Shown here: positions 5,110-22,159 of the stretch, piece by piece
Position numbering within the stretch: position 1 is the first letter of the stretch
Layout of the letters: each line of letters opens with the position of its first letter
Source: an uncultured Cetobacterium sp.
GTDB lineage: Bacteria > Fusobacteriota > Fusobacteriia > Fusobacteriales > Fusobacteriaceae
Length of the DNA stretch: 39,936 bases
Assembly (NCBI RefSeq): GCF_945952365.1
Contig: NZ_CAMFHX010000023.1
Span: forward strand, 1 to 39,936
Direction of reading: 5' to 3'
Translations under genes and position numbers: made by a program
The notes under the pieces: model-generated
What the model saw: only the letters and a program-made list of their open reading frames with translations
Told to the model about the DNA's origin: nothing
Database searches by the model: none

Positions 5110-5138
5110 CTAAATAAAACTAAAAGGAAGTGATTGAA

Positions 5139-6017
5139 ATGTGTACGAAATTATTTGAACCAAAAGTTGATTATGTATTTAAAAATCTATTTGGATCAGA
5201 AAAACATCCTAGAATATTGATATCCTTTTTAAATGCATGTATAAAACCAGAAAGTCCAATAGTTAGTGTCCAATTAAAAAATACAGAGTTATCAAAAGAA
5301 TATATTGAAGATAGTTTCTCAAGATTAGATGTTTTAGCTAAAACAGATAAAGGAGAGATAATAAATATTGAAATGCAAAGAGCTGATGAAAAAAATATGA
5401 TAAAACGTAGTCTTTACTATTGGTCAAAAGCTTTTTCTGGAGAATATGGAGGAAAAAGTAGATATAGTGAACTTCCAAGAACCATCTGCATAAATGTTAT
5501 AGATTTTAATCTTTTGTTAGAAGAAAATTATCATAATAAATATATTTTAAAAAATACTAAAACTAGTAATATTTTAACTGATACTATGGAAATACATTTT
5601 ATTGAACTACCAAAAATGAAAGAAATTGATACTAAAGATGCTCTTAGTATGTGGACAGCATTTATAAATGATCCGAATGACGATAAAGTTATTGAACTAG
5701 AAAGCATGCTTGAAGAGCTTCATGAAGCTAGAATTGAATTAGCAAGAATAAGTAGAGATCCAAAAGAAGCTGAAAATTATAGACTTCGTCAAAATGCAAT
5801 GAACGAAAGAATGAATGCACTTTTAGAAGCCGAAGATAAAGGTGTAGCTAAAGGTATGGCTCAAGGAATAGCTCAAGGAATAGCTCAGGGTATGGCTCAA
5901 GGAGAAAAATTAGCTAAATTAGAAATTGCTAAAACTTCACTACAGAATGGGTTAAGCTTTGATATTATAACTCAAATAACTGGCTTAACTATTGAAGAGA
6001 TTGAAAAATTAAAATAA
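5139..6017 (+). CDS. Rpn-family PD-(D/E)XK nuclease / putative transposase
   Basis: Protein of 292 residues in the Rpn (recombination-promoting nuclease, formerly transposase_31/PDDEXK) family. The opening LFEPKVDYVFKNLFGS is the family hallmark. The nuclease motif is visible as Asp64 in SRLDVLAKTD and Glu78-x-Gln80 in IINIEMQ. The tail carries five tetrapeptide repeats (G-x-A-K/Q, residues 235-255) before a short helical domain. Rpn proteins are DNA nucleases linked to recombination and, in recent work, to phage defence with a small C-terminal product acting as inhibitor. I start at ATG 5139 behind AAGGAAG; a GTG at 5130 overlaps that site. It is monocistronic with its own promoter. No separate antitoxin gene is visible. 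Confidence 0.85.
   Translation: MCTKLFEPKVDYVFKNLFGSEKHPRILISFLNACIKPESPIVSVQLKNTELSKEYIEDSFSRLDVLAKTDKGEIINIEMQRADEKNMIKRSLYYWSKAFSGEYGGKSRYSELPRTICINVIDFNLLLEENYHNKYILKNTKTSNILTDTMEIHFIELPKMKEIDTKDALSMWTAFINDPNDDKVIELESMLEELHEARIELARISRDPKEAENYRLRQNAMNERMNALLEAEDKGVAKGMAQGIAQGIAQGMAQGEKLAKLEIAKTSLQNGLSFDIITQITGLTIEEIEKLK
5841..5903 (+). repeat. Five 12-bp in-frame tandem repeats in the rpn-like gene
   Basis: A 12-bp unit close to GGAATAGCTCAA is repeated five times with small changes and encodes G-V/M/I-A-K/Q tetrads ending in Gly. Unit length is a multiple of three, so copy-number slippage would change the linker length and not the frame. Confidence 0.85.
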
Positions 6018-7741: not shown

Positions 7742-8887
7742 TTATTTTTTTAACTCTATTTTAGTTTTATATCTATTTATCCAACCTTTTAATGGATTCG
7801 AATTTTTCTTTTTTAAATCTTTTTTGCTAAGGTGCTCTCCAAATATTAAATCTACTATATGAAGCGTTTTTGTTTCTCCAACTTCTAAAGCTTCTCTACA
7901 TCCAGCACAATATGTCAAAATATTCCCTGTACTACTGCTCTCAGCTCTTTTTTTCCTAACCTCTTCACTTATCTCCGAAGCAACTGAAGCTACCATCCCT
8001 CCGAGTCCACAACATCTTGTTTTTTCCTTTGAGTATTCAAACTCCTCATACTGATATCCCAACTCATCCACAATCCACCTAACTCCATCTTGAATGGACT
8101 TCTCAAATCTAGTTGGACATGAATCATGAATATTAAATTTAAGATCAGACCCAATTCCTATATTGATTTTATCTTCAGGTAATCCTATTTCTGGTAGTAA
8201 CTCCCACAATGATACTGTTTCTATATCTAAGTTCTCCTTAAACATTTTATAACACGATTGACATGCAACAACTATTTTTTCTACATTTTTTTCTTTAAAT
8301 TGCTCTTCTAGCTTTTGAAATTTTCTAGAAAATAACTCTACCTCTCCAATATCTCTAGTTGGTTTTCCACAACATGCCAACATCGACTCAACATTGTTTT
8401 CTAATTTATCATTCAGATGATTTAATATACTTTTAACTCCTGAAGGACTGTAAGACGATAAAGAACACCCTGGGAAAAATAGATATTTCACATTTACTTT
8501 CTGTGAATCAATATCTTTACTAAAAAGTTTAGTCTCACCTAAATATTGATGAATCTCTACACCTTTATGACCTTTTAACGGGGATTTTCCACCATTGTCT
8601 TTACTATACTCATTTCTTAAATCTTGAAAACTAGATTTTAAATCTAATTTTTTCGGACAAACCAATTTACACTGATCACAAAGATTACAAGAAAAAGCTA
8701 TCTTTGGATCCATATTTGCATATCCTTTTTCTAGATATTCACTGAACAACTCTTTCGGACTCTCAGTATACCTATACATCATAGGACACTCTTTCATACA
8801 AAGTTTGCAACTAGATTTTTTTCCAGAAGTTGCTAAACAGTTATCGGCTATATATTTCATTTTTGATTTTATAATCTCATTTGACAT
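7742..8887 (-). CDS. Fe-S oxidoreductase with two CCG domains
   Basis: Protein of 381 residues built like GlpC, LutA/HdrD-type electron carriers. The N-terminus has two 4Fe-4S ferredoxin-like sites: C17, C27, C30, C34 (last followed by Pro) and C67-x2-C70-x2-C73-x3-C77-P. Two cysteine-rich CCG domains follow, one with FFPGCSLS and ACCGKP, the other with HDSCPTR, TRCCGLGG and TYCAGC. Such domains bind Fe-S clusters and often take electrons from a flavoprotein partner. It diverges from the flavoprotein at 9024 across a 136-bp shared control region, so the two may form a redox pair. No membrane anchor is seen. Its substrate is not identifiable. ATG 8887 follows AGAGGAG. Confidence 0.85.
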   Translation of the reverse strand: MSNEIIKSKMKYIADNCLATSGKKSSCKLCMKECPMMYRYTESPKELFSEYLEKGYANMDPKIAFSCNLCDQCKLVCPKKLDLKSSFQDLRNEYSKDNGGKSPLKGHKGVEIHQYLGETKLFSKDIDSQKVNVKYLFFPGCSLSSYSPSGVKSILNHLNDKLENNVESMLACCGKPTRDIGEVELFSRKFQKLEEQFKEKNVEKIVVACQSCYKMFKENLDIETVSLWELLPEIGLPEDKINIGIGSDLKFNIHDSCPTRFEKSIQDGVRWIVDELGYQYEEFEYSKEKTRCCGLGGMVASVASEISEEVRKKRAESSSTGNILTYCAGCREALEVGETKTLHIVDLIFGEHLSKKDLKKKNSNPLKGWINRYKTKIELKK

Positions 8888-8958
8888 GAATTCTCCTCTA
8901 TCTATATCTTTATTTTTATCAAAATAACTAGTAACTTTTTTGTAACTGATTGATATAG

Positions 8959-8976
8959 TGTAATTAATATGTTACA
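8959..8976. promoter_or_regulatory. Candidate operator in the divergent Fe-S / flavoprotein region
   Basis: The dyad TGTAA-N8-TTACA lies midway between the divergent genes. A second TGTAAC at 8941-8946 pairs with the same GTTACA, and another GTAAC lies just before it. Repeated half-sites suggest that one factor controls both directions. I cannot name it. Confidence 0.35.
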
Positions 8977-9023
8977 TTATATATTATACAATAATTGTCA
9001 TCATATTTTAAGGAGGTTTTTTT

Positions 9024-10349
9024 ATGTACCATACAATTGTTTTAGGCGGTGGCGCTGGTGGACTTACAGCTTCTATTGGACTCGCATCTGCTGGAAAAAA
9101 AGTTCTTCTTATTGAAAAAGAAAAGCTTGGTGGGGAGTGTACTTGGAGTGGGTGTATCGCCTCTAAAAGCTTCATCTCTGCAGCTAAAACTTCTAAAAAC
9201 TTAAAAGATGTTTTAGAAAAAACTCTTAAAAACGTACATAAAGTTGGTGATAGTGAATTACCTCATGTTTCTAACTTCAAAAATATAGATTTAATTATTG
9301 GTGAAGGAAGTTTTATTGATAAAAATAGTGTTATTGTAAATGGAACTATATACAAAGGAAAAAATATTGTAATCTCTACTGGAAGTTCTCCTTTTATTCC
9401 AAATATAAAAGGGTTAGAAAAAATTGATTACTTAACAAACCAAAATTTTTTCTACATAAAAGATGATTACTGCAGTATAGTTATGATTGGAGCTGGGATA
9501 ATCTCTTTAGAACTAGCTTTTCCCCTTAAAAAACTTGGAATAGATGTCACAATTTTAGAAAAATCTAGCCTTTTTCTTCCTAATATGGATGATGAAATTA
9601 GAGAGTTTTATTCTAAACGATTGAAAGAGGAAAATATAGATTTATTCTTAAACTGTGAAGAGATAGAGATTTTATCTTTTGATAAGTCTAATAAAAAAGT
9701 TTTAATAAAAACAAATCACAGAAATTTTGAAACTGAAAAAGTTTTTATATCTACTGGAAGAGTTCCTAACTTAAAAAATTTAAATTTAGAAAAAGCTGGG
9801 ATTGAATTTAATAATAAAGGTATCGTTGTTGACAGATATATGAGAACATCATCTAAAAATATATTCTCTATTGGAGATGTAGCATCACCTCTTAAATTTT
9901 CACACGTAGCGGGGTATCATGGTGAAACAGTTGTAAGAAATCTTCTGTTCCCTTATATTATGAAATCAATAGACTATTCTAATATCCCTTGGACTATATT
10001 TGGTGAAACTGAGGTTTCTAAAGTTGGTATAAGTGAAGAGGAAGCTAAAAGTAAATATAAAAAAATATATACATACACTTTAGATGAAAATAATGATAGA
10101 AGTTTAATTACATTTGAAAAGAATTTCTATTTGAAAATTATTTGTGATAATAAATTTAATATCGTAGGAGCTCTGTGTATAGGTGAAAGAGCTGGCGAAC
10201 TTATTGGATTTTTACAGCTGATGATTGGAAATAAAATTAAATTTTATAAAGCTATGAAATCTATTCAAGCTTATCCTACATATACTTACTATATAAGAAA
10301 CCTGTCTAAAAAAGCTTATATAGATCACTTAAAAAGCTATTTACCATAA
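9024..10349 (+). CDS. FAD-dependent disulfide oxidoreductase, MerA/lipoamide-dehydrogenase type
   Basis: Cytoplasmic flavoprotein of 441 residues. The FAD fold is VLGGGAGGLTAS (residues 6-17). The redox pair is Cys39-x4-Cys44 in GGECTWSGCIASK, as in lipoamide dehydrogenase and mercuric reductase. The NAD(P)-binding motif is IGAGIISLE near 156, the second FAD motif is IFSIGDVAS near 285, and a C-terminal dimerisation domain follows. The usual C-terminal His-x4-Glu catalytic pair (H-PT-E) is absent: the matching stretch reads QAYPTYTYYIR. It also lacks MerA's C-terminal vicinal cysteines and N-terminal HMA domain, so mercury reduction is unlikely. It opens the seven-gene operon with a strong AAGGAGG site. 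Its substrate is unknown; an electron route to the divergent Fe-S protein is plausible. Confidence 0.85.
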   Translation: MYHTIVLGGGAGGLTASIGLASAGKKVLLIEKEKLGGECTWSGCIASKSFISAAKTSKNLKDVLEKTLKNVHKVGDSELPHVSNFKNIDLIIGEGSFIDKNSVIVNGTIYKGKNIVISTGSSPFIPNIKGLEKIDYLTNQNFFYIKDDYCSIVMIGAGIISLELAFPLKKLGIDVTILEKSSLFLPNMDDEIREFYSKRLKEENIDLFLNCEEIEILSFDKSNKKVLIKTNHRNFETEKVFISTGRVPNLKNLNLEKAGIEFNNKGIVVDRYMRTSSKNIFSIGDVASPLKFSHVAGYHGETVVRNLLFPYIMKSIDYSNIPWTIFGETEVSKVGISEEEAKSKYKKIYTYTLDENNDRSLITFEKNFYLKIICDNKFNIVGALCIGERAGELIGFLQLMIGNKIKFYKAMKSIQAYPTYTYYIRNLSKKAYIDHLKSYLP

Positions 10350-10367
10350 TCTACTAGGAGGTGAATC

Positions 10368-11036
10368 GTGAAAAATAACAAAAAAAGAATAGCAAAATTG
10401 TTCATTATAATCTTTATAGCTTTCCTCTTCTTTCTATTTTTTAAATATGATGGAGTGAAATATATAAAAGATAAAGAGCAATTAAAAACATTAATAGAAA
10501 GTTTTGGAATCTTAGCTCCTTTAAGTTACATATTACTTTACTGTATTGTAACTATTACAACAATATCAACTCTTCCTCTTAGTTTGGCAGGTGGAGTACT
10601 ATTTGGACCAGTTTATGGAATTATCTATACTATGATTGGAGCAAGTCTTGGAATGATATCTTCATTTTTAATAGCTAGATATATTGCTAAAGACTTCATT
10701 GAACGAAAGTTTTCAAATCTACAGATTTTTAAAAAAATAAATGAAGGGGTTAAAAAAGATGGTCCATTTATTCTTGCAGTAACTAGATTACTACCAATAT
10801 TTCCTTTTGGAATTCAAAACTATCTTTACGGATTAACCTCTATCAGTTTTTTTAAATATACTATCTTTTCTATAGTATTTATTCTACCGGGAACTTCGGT
10901 TTTCGTCTTACTTGCTGGAGCTATATCTGCTGGAAATACAAAAGATGCAGCTAAAATATCTTTAATCGCATCTCTAATATTTTTAGCTTTAACTATTATT
11001 ACTAGAGTTATTCAAAACAAAATAAAAAATAGATAG
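10368..11036 (+). CDS. TVP38/TMEM64 (VTT-domain) membrane protein
   Basis: Integral membrane protein of 222 residues, with a GTG start at 10368 behind AGGAGGTG. There is a hydrophobic segment at 10-25, then the VTT core: AGGVLFGPVYGIIYTMIGASLG (about 75-95) and a re-entrant-type region near TRLLPIFPFGIQNYLYGLTSI (about 140-160), then two more helices. The VTT/DedA superfamily includes lipid scramblases and transporters. E. coli YdjX and YdjZ, encoded beside ynjABCDEF, belong to the same family. It lies 18 nt after the flavoprotein gene and 8 nt before the YnjB-like gene, so it is part of the same transcript. Confidence 0.88.
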   Translation: MKNNKKRIAKLFIIIFIAFLFFLFFKYDGVKYIKDKEQLKTLIESFGILAPLSYILLYCIVTITTISTLPLSLAGGVLFGPVYGIIYTMIGASLGMISSFLIARYIAKDFIERKFSNLQIFKKINEGVKKDGPFILAVTRLLPIFPFGIQNYLYGLTSISFFKYTIFSIVFILPGTSVFVLLAGAISAGNTKDAAKISLIASLIFLALTIITRVIQNKIKNR

Positions 11037-11044
11037 GAGATTCT

Positions 11045-12208
11045 ATGCTAAAAAAATTTATTAAACCACTACTTCCCATTCTCTTAATCGGGGCTGTTGC
11101 GGGATGTGGAAAAAAAGAGAACAGTGAAGTTAACATATATATGTGGGGTGGTTCAAAAGAGATTAATAGTTTTATGGATGACATTGTTATTCCATCAATT
11201 TCAAAAAAAGAAAATATCACTTTAAAAAGAGTTCCAATTGTTAATATTAAAGATGTTGTAAATAAGCTTATAATAGAAAAACAAGCTGGTAAAAAAAATG
11301 GAACTATCGATATTTTATGGGTTAATGGTGAAAACTTTAAAGCTTTAAAAGATGCTGAGGTTCTTGAAAAAAATATTTTAGCTAAAATTGAAAATAAAAA
11401 CATAATAAAAGAAAGTACAACAATTAAAGATTTTGGAGAGACTATTGATGGTCTAGAGGTTCCTTTTGGAGAAGCTCAATTCAACTTTATCTATAACACT
11501 GCCAAAGGAGCGATTCCTTTCAGCAATTGGATGACTTTATCTCAGTATGTAAAAAATAATCCTGAAAAATTTACATATCCAAATACCTCTAATTTTACTG
11601 GTAGTGCTTTTGTAAGAAATATCGCTATCGATATTCTTGGATATGATGAGATTTCAAAAATGACTACTGATGAACTTAAAGCTAACTTAAATATTGTTTG
11701 GAATTTTTTAAATGAGATAGAACCATATCTTTGGAGAAAAGGTGAAACATATCCAGAGTCAGAAGGAAAATTAGATTTATTATATTCAGCTGGTGAAGTT
11801 GATATCACGATGGGATATACAATTAATAAGGTTAATTCAAAAATTGAATCTGGGGATTATCCTGTAACATCAAAAAGTTTCCTATTGGATAAAGGAACTC
11901 TTTTTAATAATCATTACTTAGCGATTCCAGAAAACTCTGCTAATAAAAGTGCTGCTTTAAAAGTTATAAATGAACTAGTTTCACCAGAGATACAACTGCT
12001 TAAACAAGATTCTAAAAATTGGGGAGATTTTACAATTTTAGATATGAAAAAACTACCGACTGAAGCTGTTCAAAAGTTTATTTTATTAAATAAAAGTGAT
12101 AAAATCCCATCATCAGAGGAACTTGCAGAGAAAAGAGTGATGGAGTTGACTCCTGAAAAGTTAGAGATTATAGACAAAGGTTGGTTAGAATACGTTGGGA
12201 AAAATTAA
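11045..12208 (+). CDS. ynjB: YnjB-like ABC substrate-binding lipoprotein
   Basis: Surface or periplasmic lipoprotein of 387 residues (E. coli YnjB is about 388). The signal peptide ends in the lipobox VAGC with Cys21. The signature GTIDILWVNGENFKALK near residue 90 matches the segment I remember for YnjB proteins, which belong to the Fe3+/thiamine/polyamine-type binding-protein superfamily. A conserved PFGEAQFNFIYN stretch follows at about 147. The ligand of YnjB has never been shown to my knowledge. It is followed by the permease gene with a 14-nt overlap. Confidence 0.85.
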   Translation: MLKKFIKPLLPILLIGAVAGCGKKENSEVNIYMWGGSKEINSFMDDIVIPSISKKENITLKRVPIVNIKDVVNKLIIEKQAGKKNGTIDILWVNGENFKALKDAEVLEKNILAKIENKNIIKESTTIKDFGETIDGLEVPFGEAQFNFIYNTAKGAIPFSNWMTLSQYVKNNPEKFTYPNTSNFTGSAFVRNIAIDILGYDEISKMTTDELKANLNIVWNFLNEIEPYLWRKGETYPESEGKLDLLYSAGEVDITMGYTINKVNSKIESGDYPVTSKSFLLDKGTLFNNHYLAIPENSANKSAALKVINELVSPEIQLLKQDSKNWGDFTILDMKKLPTEAVQKFILLNKSDKIPSSEELAEKRVMELTPEKLEIIDKGWLEYVGKN

Positions 12209-13073
12209 AAAATATATATTTATAGCTCCTTTTTTAATATATATTTCAGTATTTTTTTTATACGGCTTATACTACGTTTTTATGACCTCTATTGGATTTA
12301 ACAGAATTCTAAGTCCTTCGTGCTTTACCTTAAATTTTTATCGTGAGATTTTAAGCTCAAAAGAAGTTTATGAAAGTTTTATTTACACAGTAAAAATAAA
12401 TACAATATCTGCTTTTATTTCAATTACTTTAACAGTAGTTTTGTTGTTTCTAATATTTTTAGGAAAAAGAAAAAATTATGCTCATATAAAACTATTTCAA
12501 AAGATTGTTGAATCTCCAACTTTTATTCCATACCTTATAAGTGCCTATGGCATTTTACTCGTATTTATGAAAAATGGGATTCTTCATAATCTTTTTGTTA
12601 AATTTGGAGTCTTATCGAGTAACCAATTTCCAATTCTAACAAATGAGAAATATGGTATTAGTATAATTTTTACATATATTTGGAAGACCTTACCTTTTAT
12701 GACCATGATGACTCTTCCAATAATGTTTAGAGTTGAAAAGAAATGGGATTCTTTAGGTAAAATCTATAACTTAAGCAGTTTAGACTTTTTTAAAAAAATA
12801 GTATTACCTTTAATTTTACCAAACTTAGGAGTTAGTTTCTTTATAGTTTTAAGCTACCTCTTTGCATCATTTGAAACTCCCTATATTTTAGGAGTAACTC
12901 ACCCAAGAGTTTTATCAGTATTAGTCTTCGATATGTATGCAAAAGGAAGTTTGGATTTGAGAGGTAAAATAATGGTTTTAAATATATTAATCTCTTGTCT
13001 AAGTTTGATTTTTGCAGGAGCAATATATTTCATTTTTAAATATTTTACAAAATTTGAAGATAGAGAGTGGTAA
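12195..13073 (+). CDS. ABC transporter permease, N-terminal YnjC-like half
   Basis: Membrane permease of 292 residues with six predicted helices. I start it at TTG 12195, inside the end of ynjB: the first helix (IFIAPFLIYISVFFLYGLYYVFM) starts only seven residues later, and no other start keeps it. The coupling loop that meets the ATPase is in the SLGKIYNLSSLDFFKKIVLPLILP region (about 193-216). In E. coli YnjC one polypeptide of about 511 residues carries both permease halves; here they are two genes, as in thiamine or iron importers that use a permease pair. Confidence 0.82.
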   Translation: MGKIKKYIFIAPFLIYISVFFLYGLYYVFMTSIGFNRILSPSCFTLNFYREILSSKEVYESFIYTVKINTISAFISITLTVVLLFLIFLGKRKNYAHIKLFQKIVESPTFIPYLISAYGILLVFMKNGILHNLFVKFGVLSSNQFPILTNEKYGISIIFTYIWKTLPFMTMMTLPIMFRVEKKWDSLGKIYNLSSLDFFKKIVLPLILPNLGVSFFIVLSYLFASFETPYILGVTHPRVLSVLVFDMYAKGSLDLRGKIMVLNILISCLSLIFAGAIYFIFKYFTKFEDREW

Positions 13074-13075
13074 TC

Positions 13076-13846
13076 ATGAAAAAGTATATTTTAAATTTAA
13101 CATATTTTGTAATCTGCCTATTTTTTCTATTACCATTTATGGGTATATTTTTTAAAAGTCTAAATTTTAAAATGTGGGTATATGTTTTAAACTCACCTAG
13201 CACTTATGAAAGTTTAATCACTACCACAGCTATTCTTTTTATAACTGTATTAATTAATTTTATAATAGGAACACCTGTTGCAGCTTTTTTAGCAAGAGAA
13301 AAATCTAAACTAAATTTTTTACTGATGATTGTGATAGCTCTTCCTCTTATAATTCCTGTTATGGTAAGTACGATGGGACTACAATTTGCTTTTATAAAAT
13401 TAAATCTGATTGATACTGTTCTCGGAGTTTCTGTTGTACACAGTGTTGCAACTATTCCCTACTATATTCTAAGTATGAAATCTGGATATCTTACAATAAA
13501 TAAAGATTATGTAAAGCTCGGAAAAATTTTAGGAGCTAATCCTATACAACTATTTTTTAAGATTACGTTGCCTTTAATATATCCTTCATTTTTAGTTGGA
13601 GTTTCGTTGACTATAGTTGTTTCTTTAGCACAGTATCTTATCACATTTATAATAGGAGGTGGAAGAGTTATCACTCTTCCGATTTTAATGATGCCATATC
13701 TAGTTGATGGTGGAATAACTAACGGAACCGTTTACAGTGTTATTTATATTATTTTTACATACCTCTTACTATTTTTATTAAATAGTTTTACCAAAAATAT
13801 ATACAGAAAGAGAGATTTACATGATTCAAATAAACAATGTATCTAA
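13076..13846 (+). CDS. ABC transporter permease, C-terminal YnjC-like half
   Basis: Permease of 256 residues with six predicted helices. The EAA-like coupling segment is YVKLGKILGANPIQLFFKITLPLIYP (about 146-171). It pairs with the preceding permease to form the membrane channel. I use ATG 13076, two bases past the upstream stop; a GTG nine bases earlier is possible but has no clear ribosome site. It overlaps the ATPase gene by 26 nt. Confidence 0.82.
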   Translation: MKKYILNLTYFVICLFFLLPFMGIFFKSLNFKMWVYVLNSPSTYESLITTTAILFITVLINFIIGTPVAAFLAREKSKLNFLLMIVIALPLIIPVMVSTMGLQFAFIKLNLIDTVLGVSVVHSVATIPYYILSMKSGYLTINKDYVKLGKILGANPIQLFFKITLPLIYPSFLVGVSLTIVVSLAQYLITFIIGGGRVITLPILMMPYLVDGGITNGTVYSVIYIIFTYLLLFLLNSFTKNIYRKRDLHDSNKQCI

Positions 13847-14801
13847 AATATTTTCAGGATTTCTTTTAAAAAATATAAATTTATCAATAACCTCAGGTGA
13901 GTTTATCGGCATATTGGGACAATCCGGTTCTGGAAAATCAACTCTTTTAAATTTGATAGCTGGTTTAGATGAAGATTTTTCTGGAGAGATTAAAATAGAG
14001 GGTAAGAAACCATCTCATATTATAAAAAATGGAGAGATTAGTATGGTTTTCCAAGATTCACTACTTCTTCCACACTTAAATGTCTTTGATAATATTGCAT
14101 TTGGATTGAAAATACAAAAGATAAGTAAATTTGAAATTGAGAAAAGAGTTTTTGAAGCAATTTCTGAAATGGAGCTAACTGGAAAAGAGAAAAGATTTCC
14201 AAATGAGTTGAGTGGAGGAGAAAAGCAAAGAGTTTCTATAGCTAGAGCTCTTGTGACAAAACCCAAACTTCTTTTAATGGATGAGCCATTCTCTGCATTA
14301 GATTTTAATTTAAGAGAACGAATGCAAAAATTAGTTAAATCTCTTCATAAAAAATATAAAATTAGTACTATTTTTGTAACTCATGATAGAGATGAAGCTT
14401 TCTTTTTAGCGGATAGAATTGCTGTAATGTCTGGTGGAGAACTTTTAGAGTTTGATACTCCTCAAGCTTTATATTACAACCCTAAAACACTCTATACCGC
14501 TAAACTTCTTGGAATAGAAAATATACTTTCTAAAAAAGATTTTGAAGGAATTTTTGGAATTAGAGATGAAAGTTTTGATTTTATCGCTTTTAGAGGAAAC
14601 AACCTATGTATTGTTCAAAACTCTGATTTAACTGGAATCATTGAAGATATCCAGTTTGGATTAGGGAAATATTGTCTCACTATTTTAATTGGAGATATAA
14701 AGCTCTATTTCATACAAGAAAAAGAACCAAAGGAAAAAATTGGAGATTTCATCTGTTTTTTATATAATAAAAATAATGAAATTTTAATCAAAGGAGAATA
14801 A
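13821..14801 (+). CDS. ABC transporter ATP-binding protein, YnjD-like
   Basis: ATPase of the YnjB-type importer, 326 residues. Walker A GQSGSGKST is at 33-41, Q-loop VFQDSLLLPHLNVFDNI, signature LSGGEKQR, Walker B LLLMDEPFSALD and switch His in THDRDEA. This is the PotA/FbpC/ThiQ class. About 100 residues follow the nucleotide-binding domain, where E. coli YnjD (about 217 residues) has almost none. The tail could be a small TOBE-like regulatory domain but I see no firm motif. It sits four bases before the phosphatidyltransferase gene. Confidence 0.88.
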   Translation: MIQINNVSKIFSGFLLKNINLSITSGEFIGILGQSGSGKSTLLNLIAGLDEDFSGEIKIEGKKPSHIIKNGEISMVFQDSLLLPHLNVFDNIAFGLKIQKISKFEIEKRVFEAISEMELTGKEKRFPNELSGGEKQRVSIARALVTKPKLLLMDEPFSALDFNLRERMQKLVKSLHKKYKISTIFVTHDRDEAFFLADRIAVMSGGELLEFDTPQALYYNPKTLYTAKLLGIENILSKKDFEGIFGIRDESFDFIAFRGNNLCIVQNSDLTGIIEDIQFGLGKYCLTILIGDIKLYFIQEKEPKEKIGDFICFLYNKNNEILIKGE

Positions 14802-14805
14802 ACTA

Positions 14806-15393
14806 ATGTTAGATACACACTGTAGAAAATATATTCAACCACTTATTGAAGTAGCCGCAAATTTAGCTATAAAATTAAAATTGAGTGCAAACTTTGTAAC
14901 AATTTTAGCTGCTATCGTTGGTATTTCAAGTGGAATTTTTGCCTTGATAGATATGAATATCTTAGCTATTATCATGTTGTGGTTATCAGGTTATCTTGAT
15001 GCTGTTGATGGAAGTATAGCTCGTAGAACAAAGTCATCTACAGCTTTTGGGACTGTTATGGATATAACTTTTGATAGAGTTGTTGAAGGGTCAGTTATAA
15101 TTGGGGTAGCATATAAATATCCTCAATTTAGCTTTATCTCTCTTTTGTTAGCAATCAGTATAATTATATCTATGACAATCTTTTTAACAACAGGACCTTT
15201 AGCTCAAAATAAAGGTGAAAAAACATTTTATTATCAAGCTGGATTGGCTGAAAGAACTGAAGGTTTTATTATGCTATCTGCTATGATTTTATTAAGAGAA
15301 AAGAGTGGAGTTATAATAAATCTATTCACTGGAATCGTTTTATTCACTGCTTTCCAAAGATTTGTTGAAGCTAAAAAAATTCTAGATAAATAA
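14806..15393 (+). CDS. CDP-alcohol phosphatidyltransferase, YnjF-like
   Basis: Membrane enzyme of 195 residues that joins a CDP-activated lipid or alcohol to its partner alcohol. The full metal-binding motif is present: D65-x2-D68-G69-x2-A72-R73-x8-G82-x3-D86-x3-D90. About six hydrophobic helices surround it. It is the last gene of the operon and is separated from the ATPase by 4 nt, as ynjF closes the E. coli ynj cluster. The acceptor alcohol is unknown. Context suggests it may use whatever the ABC importer brings in. AAAGGAG precedes the ATG. Confidence 0.9.
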   Translation: MLDTHCRKYIQPLIEVAANLAIKLKLSANFVTILAAIVGISSGIFALIDMNILAIIMLWLSGYLDAVDGSIARRTKSSTAFGTVMDITFDRVVEGSVIIGVAYKYPQFSFISLLLAISIIISMTIFLTTGPLAQNKGEKTFYYQAGLAERTEGFIMLSAMILLREKSGVIINLFTGIVLFTAFQRFVEAKKILDK

Positions 15394-15440: not shown

Positions 15441-15689
15441 CTATTTATATTTAATTTTCATTCTTAAAATAGTTATTGCAAATGACAACGTTACAGCATT
15501 TCCTATAATAACTGGAATATCTTTTCTAAAAGTTCCATAGATTAACCAAGCAAAAACTCCTATTGTAAACATTACATACATCAAAAGTGAGATTCCACTT
15601 GTATCTTTTGTTTTTATAGTTTTTATAGCTTGAGGTAAAAATGAAGCTGTTGTTAAAAAAGCTGCACAGTATCCTAATATATCTATCAT
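15441..15689 (-). CDS. SemiSWEET sugar transporter
   Basis: Small membrane protein of 82 residues with three helices and the PQ-loop motif (FLPQAIKTIKTKDTSGIS, about residues 17-34), the usual build of bacterial SemiSWEETs, which dimerise to make a sugar uniporter. It is 12 nt downstream of the alpha-galactosidase gene on the same strand, so it probably moves galactose, glucose or the disaccharide. A facilitator beside a Na+-coupled importer suggests it could release excess sugar. ATG 15689 has AAGGAG. Confidence 0.9.
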   Translation of the reverse strand: MIDILGYCAAFLTTASFLPQAIKTIKTKDTSGISLLMYVMFTIGVFAWLIYGTFRKDIPVIIGNAVTLSFAITILRMKIKYK

Positions 15690-15701
15690 AACTTTTTCTC
15701 C

Positions 15702-17963
15702 TTAAATAGATTTTAATTTAATTAAACAACTCTTAAAATCTCCAATTAAGCTATCTAACTCTCCTTCAATTTGTAAATTTCCTAAATCAGAGAATGAAGG
15801 TTCTTTAAATATAAGTCCACTACTATGAAGCTCGTCTCCGTAATATGACTCTCCCTGAACTTGTAAACTTTCCACTGAATATAGATAATCTTCATTTAAT
15901 CCACTCAATAACAGTGATTCATACCCAGCATTAGGAAGTGATAAGATTTTATATTTTGCTACGATAGCTTCTTTTTTATCTTTGCTTACAACCATCCATG
16001 CTGCATCATTCAATTTTTTCTCAAATGGAGAAACCAATCTATAAAAATCTCCAAATTGAATTAGTTCTCTATTTTCTTTGAAGAACTCTATCTGTTTTTT
16101 AACAATCTCTTTCTCTTCATCTGTTATTTTATTCAAATCTAACTCATATCCAAAAGCTCCAAAAATAGCGACATTCCCACGTGTTTTTATAGGTGTTATT
16201 CTATTTGTTTGATGATTTGGAACTGCCGACACATGAGCTCCCATAGAAACTACTGGATAACAAAGTGATGTCCCGTATTGAATCTTAATTCTTTCAACTG
16301 CGTCTGTATCATCACTTGTCCAAGTTTGTGGCATATAATATAACATTCCTGGATCAAATCTATTTCCGCCACTTGCACAAGATTCAAATAAAACTTCTGG
16401 AAACTCTGTTGTTAACTTTTCTAAAAGCTCGTAAAGACCTAAAATATATCTATGGAAAACCTCTCCTTGTTTTGTAGAATCTATAACTTCTGACCAAACT
16501 TCAGTCATCGGTCTATTCATATCCCATTTCACATATGATATTTTTGATTCTCTCAATATTTTAGATATTTTCTCATAAAGATATTCACGAACATCCTCTC
16601 TTCCTAAGTCCAAAGTATGCTGATTTCTACTTGGAGTATTTTTTCTATTTGGAGCTCTTAAAATCCAATTTGGATGATTTCTATAAAGTTCACTATCTTT
16701 ATTTACCATCTCAGGCTCAAACCAAAGACCAAATTTAATTCCCATCTCTTCAACTTTTTTCGATAATCCCTCAACACCACTAGGAATTTTTTCTAAATTA
16801 CTCCACCAATCTCCTAATCCAGCTTTATCATGATTCCTAGCTCCAAACCATCCATCATCTAAAACAAACAGTTCAACACCTAGCTCTTTTGCTTTTTTAG
16901 CTATGTCTAAAATTTTCTCCTCATTGAAATCAAAATATGTAGCTTCCCAGTTATTAAGTAATACTGGTCTAACTTTATCTCTCCAAACTCCTCTAGCTAA
17001 TCTTTCTCTGTAAAGTCTATGATAGTTTAAGCTAAGTCCGTTCATACCAGTATTTGAATAACTCATTACAACTTCTGGAGATTGAAATTCATCACCTTTT
17101 AATAGTGTCCAATTAAAGTTAAATGGATTCATACCGATCGAAACTCTAAGTTTGTTATATTGGTTTTTTTCAACCATCTCTATATGATTTCCACTATAAA
17201 CTAAGTTGAAACCATAAACTTCTCCTGAAAATTCTGTAGTTTCTTTTCTTTTTAAAGCTATAAATGGATTGCTATTTACACTACTTGTTCCTCTTTTACT
17301 ATCTATTACAAATTTATTTTGGTTTATTTCACTTATCTCAACGTGTCTCTCTCTTGACCAAGCTCCCGAAAGATGAACAATTTGAAAATCAGGTTCTTTA
17401 AAATCTAAAGATGCACTTAAAAATCTTTCTAAAATCAACTTTTCATCCGATTCATTTTTTATGTGAGCATTTCTTGTAATAACATCATAATCTCTAAATA
17501 TAGTATAACTTAAAGTTAGAGTTGCTCCTATAAGTTCATCCTTTAAATATATTTTTAAAGTTTTAGCTTCATTTGAATTTTCAACATATGTATTTGGAAG
17601 ATTTTTTAGATTTTCTTTTCCTTCAACTATCTCATATGAATGATAAGTAAAATCTGTAATTCTACTTCCGTTCTCTTGTAAAACTACGATTGCGGGTTCT
17701 CTGTAATCTCCATTTCCATAACTTGGATACTCCTGTAGTAAAATATCTTTACAGAAACCTCTTTTGTCATCTAAAGCATTTGGAGTAACTGGAACTTCTG
17801 CTGATGTAAATTGAACAAGATGTTGATATGAGTCTCTATGTTTAATTTTTTTTCCAAAATAAAGATGTCCTAAAGTTCCATCATCTAAAACTTTTAAAAT
17901 ATAACTAATGTTCTCGTTATAAAGGTGAAACTCTAGATTTTTTTGATTTACAAGTATATGCAT
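15702..17963 (-). CDS. Alpha-galactosidase, glycoside hydrolase family 36
   Basis: Cytoplasmic enzyme of 753 residues (no signal peptide) that cleaves alpha-1,6-linked galactose from melibiose or raffinose-type sugars. It has the GH36 layout: N-terminal beta-sandwich to about 330, TIM barrel with LDDGWFGAR and WFEPEMV, then a C-terminal sheet domain. The nucleophile is Asp481 in KWDMNR and the acid/base is Asp537 in the SCASGGNRFDPG motif. Length is typical of bacterial RafA/AgaA tetramers. It lies 9 nt after the symporter gene, in an operon led by the LacI regulator. ATG 17963 follows GGGAGGAAAA. Confidence 0.95.
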   Translation of the reverse strand: MHILVNQKNLEFHLYNENISYILKVLDDGTLGHLYFGKKIKHRDSYQHLVQFTSAEVPVTPNALDDKRGFCKDILLQEYPSYGNGDYREPAIVVLQENGSRITDFTYHSYEIVEGKENLKNLPNTYVENSNEAKTLKIYLKDELIGATLTLSYTIFRDYDVITRNAHIKNESDEKLILERFLSASLDFKEPDFQIVHLSGAWSRERHVEISEINQNKFVIDSKRGTSSVNSNPFIALKRKETTEFSGEVYGFNLVYSGNHIEMVEKNQYNKLRVSIGMNPFNFNWTLLKGDEFQSPEVVMSYSNTGMNGLSLNYHRLYRERLARGVWRDKVRPVLLNNWEATYFDFNEEKILDIAKKAKELGVELFVLDDGWFGARNHDKAGLGDWWSNLEKIPSGVEGLSKKVEEMGIKFGLWFEPEMVNKDSELYRNHPNWILRAPNRKNTPSRNQHTLDLGREDVREYLYEKISKILRESKISYVKWDMNRPMTEVWSEVIDSTKQGEVFHRYILGLYELLEKLTTEFPEVLFESCASGGNRFDPGMLYYMPQTWTSDDTDAVERIKIQYGTSLCYPVVSMGAHVSAVPNHQTNRITPIKTRGNVAIFGAFGYELDLNKITDEEKEIVKKQIEFFKENRELIQFGDFYRLVSPFEKKLNDAAWMVVSKDKKEAIVAKYKILSLPNAGYESLLLSGLNEDYLYSVESLQVQGESYYGDELHSSGLIFKEPSFSDLGNLQIEGELDSLIGDFKSCLIKLKSI

Positions 17964-17972
17964 TTTTCCTCC

Positions 17973-19676
17973 CTAAGCTTCAATTGCTTTTTCTACTTTT
18001 GATTTTTGTCTATATTTTCTAATAGTTATAACTAGTAAAGCTGTAACTGTCCATAGTATTCCTAGGTTTTTTTGTAATCCCACAAAGTTCAACGTAACCA
18101 ATCCATACTTTGAGAAAATAACGTAAAATGATAACATTACAGCTACTATTATTGTTCCAGCTTCGTATTGGTGCTCCCAAGGAGTAACTTCAACAACATT
18201 TTTATTTACTAAAACATATGGTGTTTTTCTAGGCTTTAATTTTCCTATCACTAACATAATTGCACAACTTATAACGAACAATATTGCCGATTGATGTAAA
18301 AAATGTAAGTCCGGCTTAATCACAAGCTGAAGAATTGCATATGATGAAACGAAAAATGCCAATGAAATTTTTGCTGCTATTGCTGGTACATATTTTGTTG
18401 TATAACCTATAAAAATTATTGTAAATATAGGCACATTGAAGAAGCCATTTACAATTTGTAAATACTGGAATAACCCTTGAGGTGCTTTCATTATTAAAGG
18501 CGCTGTAAATAAAGATGTTAATGCTATAACAAATCCAAATATTTTCCCTTTATTTACTATTTGAGCATCCGTTTTATTCTTTCCAAAAATTGGTTTATAA
18601 ACATTTATACAAAATAACGTTGAAGCACTATTTAAAGTACTATTGTAACTACTTAAAACAGCTCCAAACATTACAGCAGCAAAGAATCCTATAAAGTATT
18701 TTGGCATTAAAGCTTTAATTAGATGTGAATACATTAAATCTGGTTCTGCAAAGTTAGCTCCGTAGATATGATAAGCAATAATCCCTGGAATAATTACGAT
18801 TACAGGAGTAAATATTTTTAAAAGTCCTGCTAACATAACTCCTTTTTGACCCTCTTTCAAGTTTTTAGCAGCTAAAGCTCTTTGCATAATCCCTTGATCT
18901 GTTCCCCAATAATATAGATTTACTAAAAGCATCCCTGTAAAAAGAGTTGTAAATGGAATCGGATCTGAATTTGAACCGATAGCATCAAACTTTTCTGGAT
19001 GTGCTAAAATTAATTCTCCGATACCTCTACTTAATGAACCATTTCCTATAAATTTAAACCCTAAATAAGGTACTGATAATCCCCCAATTATAAGTCCTAT
19101 TCCATTTAAGGTATCTGAAAATGCTACCGCCTTTAATCCACCAAAAATTGCATAGATTGCCCCAATAATTCCAATTGCCCAAACTGTTATCCAAATTCCA
19201 GCTGTATAAGAAACCCCTAATACACCAGAAATATCAAACAGTTGACTCATTACAAGAGCTCCAGCATAAAGTGTAGGTGGTAATCCATTTAAAACATAAC
19301 TAGTTAAAAATAGATACGTTACAAATTTTCTAACTCCTGGATCAAAACGATCTTCTAGAAATTCTGGAATTGTTGTAAGACCACCTTTTAAGTATCTAGG
19401 AACTAAAAACATTGCAACAAGTACCAAAGTTATTCCTGAACAAACTTCCCATCCCATAACAGACATGTTATGAGTATAAGATTGAGCACTCATTCCTGCA
19501 AAGTTTGCTGGACTAAGGTTTGTTAGCATAAGAGACCCTGCTATAAATCCAGCTGTTAAACTTCTTCCTCCTAAAAAATAACCGTCATTTGTATCTAATG
19601 TATCCCCTTTAGTTTTATAGTAAGTCAATATAGCAACTAAAGCTGTAAAGAAAATAAAAGATAAAAACATTAACAT
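17973..19676 (-). CDS. Sodium:solute symporter (SSS family), probable galactoside/galactose importer
   Basis: Inner-membrane Na+-coupled carrier of 567 residues with about 14 helices. Early family landmarks are DGYFLGGRSLTAGFIAGSLMLTNLSPANFAG (about 31-61) and the GGLKAVAFSDTLNGIGL stretch near 179-195, typical of SglT/SGLT-like members. Its place between the LacI regulator and the alpha-galactosidase points to an alpha-galactoside or its monosaccharides as substrate; this rests on context, not on binding residues. ATG 19676 has AGGGGAG 9 nt upstream; a second ATG at 19670 is possible. Confidence 0.88.
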   Translation of the reverse strand: MLMFLSFIFFTALVAILTYYKTKGDTLDTNDGYFLGGRSLTAGFIAGSLMLTNLSPANFAGMSAQSYTHNMSVMGWEVCSGITLVLVAMFLVPRYLKGGLTTIPEFLEDRFDPGVRKFVTYLFLTSYVLNGLPPTLYAGALVMSQLFDISGVLGVSYTAGIWITVWAIGIIGAIYAIFGGLKAVAFSDTLNGIGLIIGGLSVPYLGFKFIGNGSLSRGIGELILAHPEKFDAIGSNSDPIPFTTLFTGMLLVNLYYWGTDQGIMQRALAAKNLKEGQKGVMLAGLLKIFTPVIVIIPGIIAYHIYGANFAEPDLMYSHLIKALMPKYFIGFFAAVMFGAVLSSYNSTLNSASTLFCINVYKPIFGKNKTDAQIVNKGKIFGFVIALTSLFTAPLIMKAPQGLFQYLQIVNGFFNVPIFTIIFIGYTTKYVPAIAAKISLAFFVSSYAILQLVIKPDLHFLHQSAILFVISCAIMLVIGKLKPRKTPYVLVNKNVVEVTPWEHQYEAGTIIVAVMLSFYVIFSKYGLVTLNFVGLQKNLGILWTVTALLVITIRKYRQKSKVEKAIEA

Positions 19677-19720
19677 AAAGCCACACTCCCCTTATATTTA
19701 TTTTAAAATTTTAAAAAAAT

Positions 19721-20755
19721 TTAATCTTCAAAATAATCTATCATGCTCCCTATTAGTTTTGTCTTTGTATATTCAACTCTTGTTTCTACAAACTCAGAAA
19801 CTAAGAATTTGATACTTTTTTTAGCTGTTTCTTTTAACATAGGTGACACTGTTTTAAAACCCATTGGAACTGTATATTTTAAATTATCGAATCCCCAAAT
19901 CTCTAATTTTTGATAATCAACTTCAAACTCTTTCAAAGCTTTTACGATTCCAAATAGCATATTATCACTTGATGAAAAAATAGCATCAAATTTTATATCA
20001 TTTTTTAATATTTGAACCATATCGCTATAAGCATTTTCTCTACAATAATCTGATTTTAAAATTAGATTTTTATCGATATCTATTTTTTTATTTTTTAAAC
20101 TATCTTCATACGCTCTTTTTCTTTCAAATCCAGAAAGTTTATTCAAATCTCCTAGAAATATAAGTGGCTGTTTTAAATTTTTTTCTAAAATTTTCTCCAT
20201 AATAGAGGATACTCCACCATAATCATCTGTATTTATGTATAAAGTTTTCTGAGCCATATTGTTAATTTCTTTGGCATAGTCTACTACCACAACCCTGTAT
20301 TCACTTTTTATCATTTTTTCTAAAAACAGATTATCTCTTAAAAAACCAATAAATATTCCACTTGAAACATTTCCGTTTTTAAAAAAAGCTTCAATTCTTT
20401 TTTCATCATTAAAATCTTTTACATAATCTACTAAGATTTGATGATTTTCTAAAAAAGCTTCTTTTACAACAGTATCTGTAAAATCCATAAAGTATGCTGT
20501 ATCCATAGCAGTTGTTTCCAATCTCATATTGGGTTCGTATATAAAAACTCCAATTACACTATTTTTTTTCCCTGCCAATGTCTGAGCATTTAAATTTGGA
20601 ATATAGTTATACTCATCTATTATTTTTAAGATTTTTTGTCGATTCCTAGCACTCACATTTGGATGATTATTTAAAACTCTTGAAACTGTACTTCTTGAAA
20701 CTCCTGCTAATTTAGCTATTTCTGTACTATCTATTTTCAAATTTTCTTTTTTCAT
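19721..20755 (-). CDS. LacI/GalR-family transcriptional regulator
   Basis: DNA-binding sugar sensor of 344 residues. The helix-turn-helix and hinge helix are IDSTEIAKLAGVSRSTVSRVLNNHPNVS (about 8-35) and the hinge region LNAQTLAG, followed by a periplasmic-binding-protein-like effector domain from residue 66. It is the first gene of the operon with the symporter, galactosidase and SemiSWEET, so it most likely represses them and itself through the palindrome 14 bp upstream, with an alpha-galactoside or galactose as inducer (inferred). Confidence 0.92.
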   Translation of the reverse strand: MKKENLKIDSTEIAKLAGVSRSTVSRVLNNHPNVSARNRQKILKIIDEYNYIPNLNAQTLAGKKNSVIGVFIYEPNMRLETTAMDTAYFMDFTDTVVKEAFLENHQILVDYVKDFNDEKRIEAFFKNGNVSSGIFIGFLRDNLFLEKMIKSEYRVVVVDYAKEINNMAQKTLYINTDDYGGVSSIMEKILEKNLKQPLIFLGDLNKLSGFERKRAYEDSLKNKKIDIDKNLILKSDYCRENAYSDMVQILKNDIKFDAIFSSSDNMLFGIVKALKEFEVDYQKLEIWGFDNLKYTVPMGFKTVSPMLKETAKKSIKFLVSEFVETRVEYTKTKLIGSMIDYFED

Positions 20756-20963: not shown

Positions 20964-21006
20964 AATTGAAATATATTTTTTAAATATATGAAAATTAAAT
21001 AAACAA

Positions 21007-21073
21007 CTTCGTATAACCCTATTAATCTGGTATAGGGGTCTCTACCACGGAACCATAATTCCTGCTTACGAAG
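21007..21073 (+). ncRNA. Adenine-class purine riboswitch aptamer
   Basis: The purine riboswitch core is recognisable. P1 is CTTCGTA (21007-21013) with TACGAAG (21067-21073), followed by TATAA in J1/2. P2 is CCCTAT/ATAGGG with the conserved GG in L2, then TCTCTACC in J2/3, then P3 CGGAA/TTCC with CC in L3. The base immediately 5' of the 3' P1 strand (21066), which pairs with the ligand, is T. A U there selects adenine, a C guanine. The downstream gene is adenosine deaminase, the same pairing as the well-known Vibrio vulnificus add riboswitch. Confidence 0.92.
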
Positions 21074-21122
21074 AAGATATGTCTATCATTGCCATATTTT
21101 CTTCGTGTGCAGGATTTTTTTT
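21061..21122 (+). terminator. Riboswitch expression platform: terminator overlapping the aptamer
   Basis: CCTGC (21061-21065), ACGAAGAA and ATATG pair in order with CATAT, TTCTTCGT and GCAGG (21109-21113), followed by eight T. The 5' arm reuses the 3' strands of P3 and P1, so ligand binding and termination exclude each other. Adenine should therefore switch the gene on by blocking termination. Confidence 0.88.
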
Positions 21123-21151
21123 ATAATTTTTTATTTAGAAGGAGAAAAAAT

Positions 21152-22159
21152 ATGAATTTAAACAAATTACCAAAAATCGAGTTACACTGTCATCTTGATG
21201 GAAGTGTAAGACCTGAAACTATTATTGAGTTATCAAAAATTGAAAATGTTAAACTTCCTAGTTATGATATAGAAACTATTAGAAATATTATGATTGCTCC
21301 TATGGAGTGTACATCTCTTGATGAGTATTTAGAAAAGTTCGAAATTCCTGTTGCTATTATGCAATCTAAAGAAAGTTTAGAAAGAATCACTTTTGAACTT
21401 ATGGAAGATTCTGCTAAAGAAAATATAAAATATATTGAGATTAGATTTGCTCCATTACTTCATATAAATAAGGGGCTTTCTGTTGAAGAGATTCTAGAAA
21501 GTGTTATTAACGGAATTAAAAAAGCTGAAGAGATATACGATATAAAAGGAAATCTTATTTTATCATTCCTAAGACATATGCCTGCTGAAACTATCTACGA
21601 TGTTATTGAGGCTGGAAAAAGATTCTTAGGTGATGGTGTTGTGGCTATAGATCTATGTGCTAGTGAAGAAAAAGGGTTCTGTGAAAGATTTATAAAGCCA
21701 TTCGAACTTGGAAGAGAGTATGGTTATAGAGTTACTATACATGCTGGTGAAACTGGAATTGGAGAAAACGTTTTAGACGCTGTTCAAATGCTACATGCTG
21801 AGAGAATTGGTCATGGAATCCATATAAAAAATTGTAAAGCCGCTTATGATATTGTAAAAGAAAATGGAATTACATTAGAGATGTGTCCTACGAGTAATGT
21901 TCAAACTAAAGCTGTTGAGAATTTTGAAAATCATCCTCTTTTAGATTTCTATAAAGATGGAATAAATGTAACAATAAATACTGATAATAGAACTGTTTCT
22001 AATACCACTTTAACTAATGAGATTCTTGTTTCTAAAGATAATTTCAATATGGATTTTGAAATCTATAAAAATATATATCTAACTTCTGTTGAAGCGGCTT
22101 TTACAACTTCAGAGGTTAAAAATAAACTGAAAGCTGATTTAGAGAAGTTTAAAAATTAG
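21152..22159 (+). CDS. add: Adenosine deaminase
   Basis: Zn-dependent cytoplasmic enzyme of 335 residues converting adenosine to inosine in purine salvage. Metal and catalytic residues are visible: H12-x-H14 in ELHCHLDGS, H197 and E200 in HAGE, the GHGI His after ERI, and the D278-N pair in NTDN. Length fits bacterial Add. The start is ATG 21152, with GGAG nearby; an upstream in-frame ATG lies inside the terminator hairpin and is not credible. It is a single-gene unit under the adenine riboswitch. Confidence 0.93.
   Translation: MNLNKLPKIELHCHLDGSVRPETIIELSKIENVKLPSYDIETIRNIMIAPMECTSLDEYLEKFEIPVAIMQSKESLERITFELMEDSAKENIKYIEIRFAPLLHINKGLSVEEILESVINGIKKAEEIYDIKGNLILSFLRHMPAETIYDVIEAGKRFLGDGVVAIDLCASEEKGFCERFIKPFELGREYGYRVTIHAGETGIGENVLDAVQMLHAERIGHGIHIKNCKAAYDIVKENGITLEMCPTSNVQTKAVENFENHPLLDFYKDGINVTINTDNRTVSNTTLTNEILVSKDNFNMDFEIYKNIYLTSVEAAFTTSEVKNKLKADLEKFKN

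Follow-up and report, generated by a model that had tools for sequence, protein, structure and literature searches.

A gene module joining a YnjBCD-type importer to a YnjF-like lipid enzyme, with an exchangeable redox part, in Cetobacterium and distant bacteria

We analysed a 39,936-nucleotide (nt) stretch of DNA, here called the window, which lies on contig 23 of the 2.5-Mb genome of an uncultured Cetobacterium sp. (Fusobacteriaceae; genome G000). Positions 7742-15393 carry genes for a YnjB-type lipoprotein, its YnjCD-type ATP-binding cassette (ABC) transporter, a YnjF-like CDP-alcohol phosphatidyltransferase, a VTT (TVP38/DedA) membrane protein and two redox proteins. We found that this gene set recurs in distant lineages, that the pairing of YnjF with YnjB is obligate in the groups searched and that the redox part of the set is exchangeable.

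Pairing of YnjF with YnjB and recurrence of the gene set

In a whole-genome search, the YnjF subfamily was present in 27 of 98 Fusobacteriota genomes, and all 27 were among the 29 that had a YnjB protein over the cut-off. In the Planococcus order, YnjB and YnjF were found in the identical 24 of 100 genomes, about 3.5 kb apart at most in each. Every genome with YnjF in these two groups (27/27 and 24/24) also had YnjB, which is contrary to the outcome that the first-pass annotation of this DNA had named as refuting its idea, namely that the genes do not co-occur beyond a few genomes. YnjF was adjacent to YnjB wherever the assembly permits, and the joint presence of the two was patchy (1 of 12 genomes in group g4, 1 of 2 in g7). 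Of all the evidence, this strict pairing speaks most strongly for a single process in which transporter and lipid enzyme both take part, and because they are inherited together so strictly, the pump and the enzyme probably serve one pathway. A literature search found no paper treating YnjB together with YnjF.

For the wider gene set, a YnjB alignment was scanned against 84,980 species genomes, which gave 580 or more relatives. We examined the best 80 of these with up to 10 kb of flanking DNA, together with 20 Fusobacteriaceae regions, and genus-level groups were derived from sequence record titles. As these 80 loci were taken from the top of the score list, the fractions that follow apply to YnjB proteins similar to the types of the window and E. 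coli; the VTT and YnjF counts, including those in control regions, are lower bounds because diverged genes of both families escape BLAST against single references. YnjB was present in 57 genus-level groups; YnjF was within 9 kb in 32 of them, VTT in 33 and both in 28. A redox protein accompanied all three genes within 9 kb in 27 of the 57 groups, which bears out the earlier idea that the set recurs in distant lineages as one unit, and the set was found in Fusobacteriota, Bacilli, Clostridia, Spirochaetes and E. coli. Of 57 dereplicated loci whose flanks could be used, 37 had both YnjF and VTT and 10 had neither, with 5 discordant loci of each kind (Fisher p ~1e-4), and VTT was associated with redox genes (p ~2e-5); these values assume independent loci, which is not fully the case, and are uncorrected for phylogeny. 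As a comparison, 20 random 19-kb Fusobacteriaceae regions contained no VTT, YnjF, CCG or rhodanese homologue by BLAST against single references, while flavoproteins belonging to the large Pyr family occurred in 4 of the 20.

The loci with YnjF had 31 gene layouts, and therefore it is the content that is conserved and not a frozen arrangement. Fusions among the loci read were of rhodanese to VTT and, in one locus, of VTT to the flavoprotein. Distance matrices for YnjB were correlated with those for YnjF (r 0.67) and VTT (r 0.76). In three loci of one Fusobacteriaceae genus (L056-L058, group g14) no YnjD ATPase was detected beside the permeases, and it may be encoded elsewhere. Directly 3' of ynjF in another locus (L050, 12532-13959) is a gene for a 475-amino-acid protein with no NCBIfam match.

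In the window, NCBIfam and Pfam profile searches of the proteins upheld the coordinates and identities of the eight genes that had been described at first pass. The features are listed below, with start codons set mechanically.

7742-8887, minus strand: CCG/dicluster Fe-S protein, HdrC-HdrB-like, 381 amino acids (PF02754, E 7.9e-17; Fer4 domains)
8888-9023, no strand: intergenic region of 136 nt between the divergent units, presumed from the coordinates to be a shared control region
9024-10349, plus strand: MerA/Lpd-like flavoprotein of the FAD disulfide-reductase family, 441 amino acids (PF07992/PF02852, Pyr_redox_2)
10368-11036, plus strand: VTT (TVP38/DedA) membrane protein, YdjX-like (PF09335, E 2.3e-23, 83.4 bits; YdjX, E 3e-35)
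11045-12208, plus strand: YnjB-type substrate-binding lipoprotein (NF008633, 371.7 bits, cut-off 203)
12195-13073, plus strand: ABC permease 1, like the N-terminal half of YnjC (weak CysT/PhnU/ThiP-type matches; E. coli YnjC, E 2e-6)
13067-13846, plus strand: ABC permease 2, like the C-terminal half of YnjC (PF00528, E 3.2e-17; E. coli YnjC, E 2e-7)
13821-14801, plus strand: YnjD-like ABC ATPase with a C-terminal extension (PF00005, E 2.4e-37; E. coli YnjD, E 5e-30)
14806-15393, plus strand: YnjF-like CDP-alcohol phosphatidyltransferase, CDP-OH_P_transf (PF01066, 55.9 bits, cut-off 22)

The CCG gene is divergent from the other seven across the 136-nt gap. These seven are packed as tightly as had been claimed, with spacings, in order, of +18, +8, -14, -7, -26 and +4 nt. 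The Pfam search gave no match for permease 1. Over the whole of G000 there are only two VTT genes and three CDP-alcohol transferase genes, and with the random regions described above this indicates that the genes are not grouped by chance. The 136-nt gap had no Rfam match and a promoter scan of it gave promoter-like sites that were not above chance; no known RNA or riboswitch that might name the substrate was seen upstream of the module in 20 sources.

Elsewhere in the window, consecutive minus-strand genes at 15441-20755 encode a SemiSWEET transporter, an alpha-galactosidase-like protein and a sodium:solute symporter, apparently a separate sugar-use unit that faces the ynjF end of the module. 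A purine riboswitch (64.5 bits) at 20989-21088 is directly upstream of an adenosine deaminase gene (21089-22159), and a nuclease of the Rpn/PDDEXK family, a putative transposase relative, is encoded close to the module at 5130-6017.

The redox part of the module

The first-pass annotation counted an Fe-S protein among the parts that recur in E. coli. This was overstated, since the redox part switches among three unrelated types. Leaving out the window, the flavoprotein and the Fe-S protein (CCG or YdjY) were nearly mutually exclusive in loci with YnjF: 16 had the MerA-like flavoprotein only, 21 had CCG or YdjY only, 2 had both and 3 had neither. The two loci with both are L053, a close relative of the window, and L054, where the match is weak (60 bits). 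The redox slot is thus exchangeable, which is a new finding, and the window with its flavoprotein and CCG protein is a rare hybrid. Rhodanese occurred in 15 of the 25 loci of Fe-S type, and none of the other dereplicated loci had it. The flavoprotein form occurs mostly in Bacilli that are aerobes; the Fe-S forms are mostly from anaerobes.

The window CCG protein has two complete CX~35CCX~33CXXC motifs (residues 141-212 and 257-330), a spacing that is near-canonical for the CX31-39CCX35-36CXXC-type motifs of HdrB-type proteins. It matches the oxidoreductase/dicluster-binding family NF045663 over the C-terminal half of that family only (262.6 bits, below the cut-off of 530), and so corresponds to that half without the GltD-like flavin half; unlike NF045663, it is accompanied in its operon by a separate MerA-like flavoprotein. 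In the window's genus, most CCG proteins carry a fused GltD-like flavin half. This half is missing in the window and L053, both of which have the MerA-like flavoprotein in the operon, and the simplest reading is that the flavoprotein would take over the use of NAD(P)H from the flavin half.

The redox pair Cys39-Cys44 was conserved in 36 of 36 module flavoproteins. In the same 36, the catalytic His is replaced by Tyr, and therefore ordinary disulfide reduction is not assured; the window protein also lacks the Glu. We rejected a classic glutathione or lipoamide reductase for want of the catalytic His-Glu pair. The mercuric reductase MerA was rejected as well (266 bits against a cut-off of 454, no C-terminal Cys).

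Possible working of the module and alternatives

We tentatively favour the idea, which we rate at somewhat under an even chance, that this co-inherited module brings in a small polar compound (an alcohol, a polyol or a sugar, probably) for use in the inner membrane. In the sequence of events that we infer for it, the lipoprotein YnjB would capture the compound for import by YnjC/C/D, and the PIP-synthase-like YnjF would join it, or a phosphorylated form of it, to diacylglycerol. The YdjX-like VTT protein would then equilibrate the product between the leaflets, and NAD(P)H electrons would pass via the flavoprotein and/or the Fe-S protein to the substrate, the product or a partner of the VTT protein.

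In favour of this idea are the strict pairing, the recurrence with constant content, the fusions and the correlated distances described above and, in E. coli, the activation of ydjXYZ-ynjABCD as one unit by FNR. Placement of an imported alcohol on a phospholipid is consistent with the motif and the modelled fold of YnjF. The window protein has the CDP-alcohol phosphatidyltransferase motif D-x2-D-G-x2-A-R ... G-x3-D-x3-D, and residues D65, D68G69, A72R73, G82, D86 and D90 were invariant in 35 sequences. The nearest solved folds to its AlphaFold2 (AF2) model (predicted local distance difference test score, pLDDT, 91) are phosphatidylinositol phosphate (PIP) synthases (E ~4e-5, template-modelling score 0.74-0.77), followed by inositol-phosphate transferases and PgsA. 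YnjF thus appears to share its fold and catalytic motif with PIP synthases (PgsA1/PIPS); it differs in having only ~20% identity to them and scores 59 bits against PIPSynth NF045883, below the cut-off of 170. PIP-synthase-like enzymes use a phosphorylated polyol.

The window VTT protein is of the YdjX/COG0398 type, being closest to YdjX and then to YdjZ (E 4e-14) and not to UndP flippases, with no match to UptA in the NCBIfam search. The COG0398 group, including YdjX/YdjZ-type DedAs, has been proposed to act as phospholipid scramblases (PMC10127716).

Several results weigh against this idea. The AF2 model of YnjB (pLDDT 92.5) is closest to PotD/PhnS/ThiB/FbpA-type binding proteins, and the ligands of these nearest folds are polyamines, aminoethylphosphonate, thiamine, iron or gamma-aminobutyric acid; a search of solved structures for a ligand gave only weak PotD-like sequence matches and a broad fold family, which does not point to one ligand. 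No kinase adjoins the window operon, although the substrate used by PIP-synthase-like enzymes is a phosphorylated polyol. In several loci without YnjF, YnjBCD is accompanied by kinases and enzymes of sugar type, so attachment to a lipid is not the sole fate of the substrate. Co-inheritance alone is no proof of a metabolic link, and the incomplete independence of the loci lessens the force of the associations given above.

A more specific proposal is that the module produces and distributes phospholipids of a class not described before, with a head group from an imported polyol or ribose-type compound and with electrons from the flavoprotein in aerobes or from Fe-S proteins in anaerobes. We regard this as doubtful. 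If true, the lipid would be common to Fusobacteriota, Bacillota, Spirochaetota and enterobacteria, and functions would be gained at once for YnjBCD, YnjF and YdjX/YdjZ, which are still unexplained in E. coli, the best-studied bacterium. Since YnjF and YnjB are strictly paired across phyla and the content stays constant in shuffled order, these genes can be treated as one testable unit.

Some of the same data fit a sulfur or selenium (thiol, persulfide) system, in which the compound imported by YnjBCD would contain organic sulfur or selenium. The flavoprotein, the CCG protein and rhodanese would reduce this compound or move its sulfur, and YnjF and VTT would serve the membrane and not the substrate. 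The redox partners are all of disulfide or persulfide type (HdrB-like CCG motifs, rhodanese, the Cys pair of the flavoprotein), and the E. coli ynjABCDEFI genes group genetically with suf genes. In Bacilli, TIGR03169 (Nterm_to_SelD) flavoproteins are near the module in 27 loci, many of them from Planococcus (L063-L076, L100, L106, L118-L124, L130, L135 and others), and four Bacillus loci have a PrdB-like candidate selenoprotein with an in-frame TGA. However, we judge such a system unlikely, as it gives no account of why YnjF, of all the genes, should be the one with the strictest tie to YnjB, and no known enzyme of sulfur or selenium uptake or assimilation was recurrent among the neighbours scanned. 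The PrdB-like gene (D-proline reductase type; L085, 8981-9766, also in L084, L096 and L117) has its TGA in a UxxC context and lies beside a flippase-like LPG_synthase_TM gene. A dependence on selenium was considered and set aside: SelD was present in 27 of 29 YnjB genomes and in 30 of 69 other Fusobacteriota, a difference that we judged to be confounded by phylogeny. The SelD gene of G000 (C5, 86332-87234) contains a single in-frame TGA, a feature seen in many Fusobacteriota, and its product is probably itself a selenoprotein.

Import of ribose-type compounds (5-methylthioribose, other 5-substituted ribosides, possibly organoarsenic sugars), to be phosphorylated and activated so that the YnjF acceptor would be a sugar or polyol phosphate, is compatible with the favoured mechanism, although in this form we consider it distinctly unlikely. 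It draws on the alternative partners of YnjBCD, which hint at a polyol or ribose-type substrate, and on the use of polyol phosphate by PIP synthases. In one Fusobacteriaceae locus (L040) an operon without YnjF contains, next to YnjBCD, genes at 12139-14706 for a methylthioribose kinase (1e-83 to 2olc) and a TIGR04283-TIGR04282 fusion. In L044/L062 the partners of YnjBCD are an APH kinase, a TIGR04282-type protein and a glycosyltransferase of family 2 that scores over the TIGR04283 cut-off, and APH kinases also recur beside YnjBCD in sulfate-reducer loci. L042 has YnjF, VTT and redox genes together with a nucleoside hydrolase, an APH kinase, TIGR04282 and TIGR04283. TIGR04283 is over its cut-off in three Fusobacteriota genomes, each time inside a ynjBCD operon. 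Against this, none of these enzymes is in the window operon, the APH kinases of other loci are nearer to choline/thiamine kinases in profile matches, and YnjB paralogues may differ in ligand. ArsS (TIGR04167) was absent from G000 and 20 other YnjB genomes, and therefore arsenosugars, which TIGR04282/04283 had suggested, are not made in these 21 genomes via the ArsS route. A methionine-salvage operon was likewise rejected: of two methylthioribose kinases counted among the neighbours one was genuine (that of L040) and the second was not located, and no further mtn genes were seen.

That there is no single pathway, and that shared regulation such as that of anaerobic or envelope stress has brought an ABC importer together with a block for general membrane maintenance (YnjF, VTT, redox), is very unlikely given the strict YnjF-YnjB pairing, the joint patchy presence and the constant content across phyla despite shuffled order, even though some genomes carry the transporter without this block and E. 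coli ydjXYZ-ynjABCD is one FNR-activated unit (PMC3688515) with ynjAB weakly induced by BaeR.

Comparison with known systems

The uncharacterised E. coli K-12 cluster has the order ydjX (VTT), ydjY (4Fe-4S), ydjZ (VTT), ynjA (AhpD-like), ynjB, ynjC (one fused gene), ynjD and ynjE (rhodanese), with ynjF after ynjE on the opposite strand. As in the window, a YnjB-C-D transporter, a YdjX-like VTT protein and a YnjF-type transferase occur together with redox or Fe-S proteins alongside. Identities between window and E. coli proteins were 35% for YnjB, 35% for YnjD, 34% for VTT to YdjX and 24% for YnjF, and both window permeases were weakly similar to the fused YnjC (E ~1e-6 to 1e-7). The first-pass annotation had drawn this parallel, and it stands for YnjBCD, VTT and YnjF. 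It fails for the Fe-S protein, as the window CCG protein has no detectable similarity to YdjY (NF040466); the shared "Fe-S protein" is therefore not a shared gene, and YdjY is, by this sequence comparison, an alternative to the CCG protein and not its orthologue. The E. coli cluster also differs in its two VTT proteins, fused YnjC, YnjA and rhodanese YnjE, in having no MerA-like flavoprotein and in a ynjF of a distant subgroup. No YdjY, YnjA or YnjE homologue was found in the window.

The Planococcus, Salimicrobium and Bacillus clusters (L063, L100, L105 and others) resemble the window in having YnjB-C-C-D, YnjF, VTT and the same MerA-like flavoprotein. They have no CCG protein, and often an extra TIGR03169 flavoprotein is nearby.

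Fusions of COG0398 DedAs to pyridine nucleotide-disulfide oxidoreductases are known (PMC10127716) and show the same pairing of VTT with a flavoprotein. By contrast, in the window the two are separate genes and stand in a set with an ABC importer and an enzyme of lipid synthesis. The fusions were described as linked to aerobic metabolism, whereas the module VTT is also found in anaerobes with Fe-S partners. This replacement of the flavoprotein in anaerobes suggests that YdjX-type DedAs are not tied to aerobic metabolism alone.

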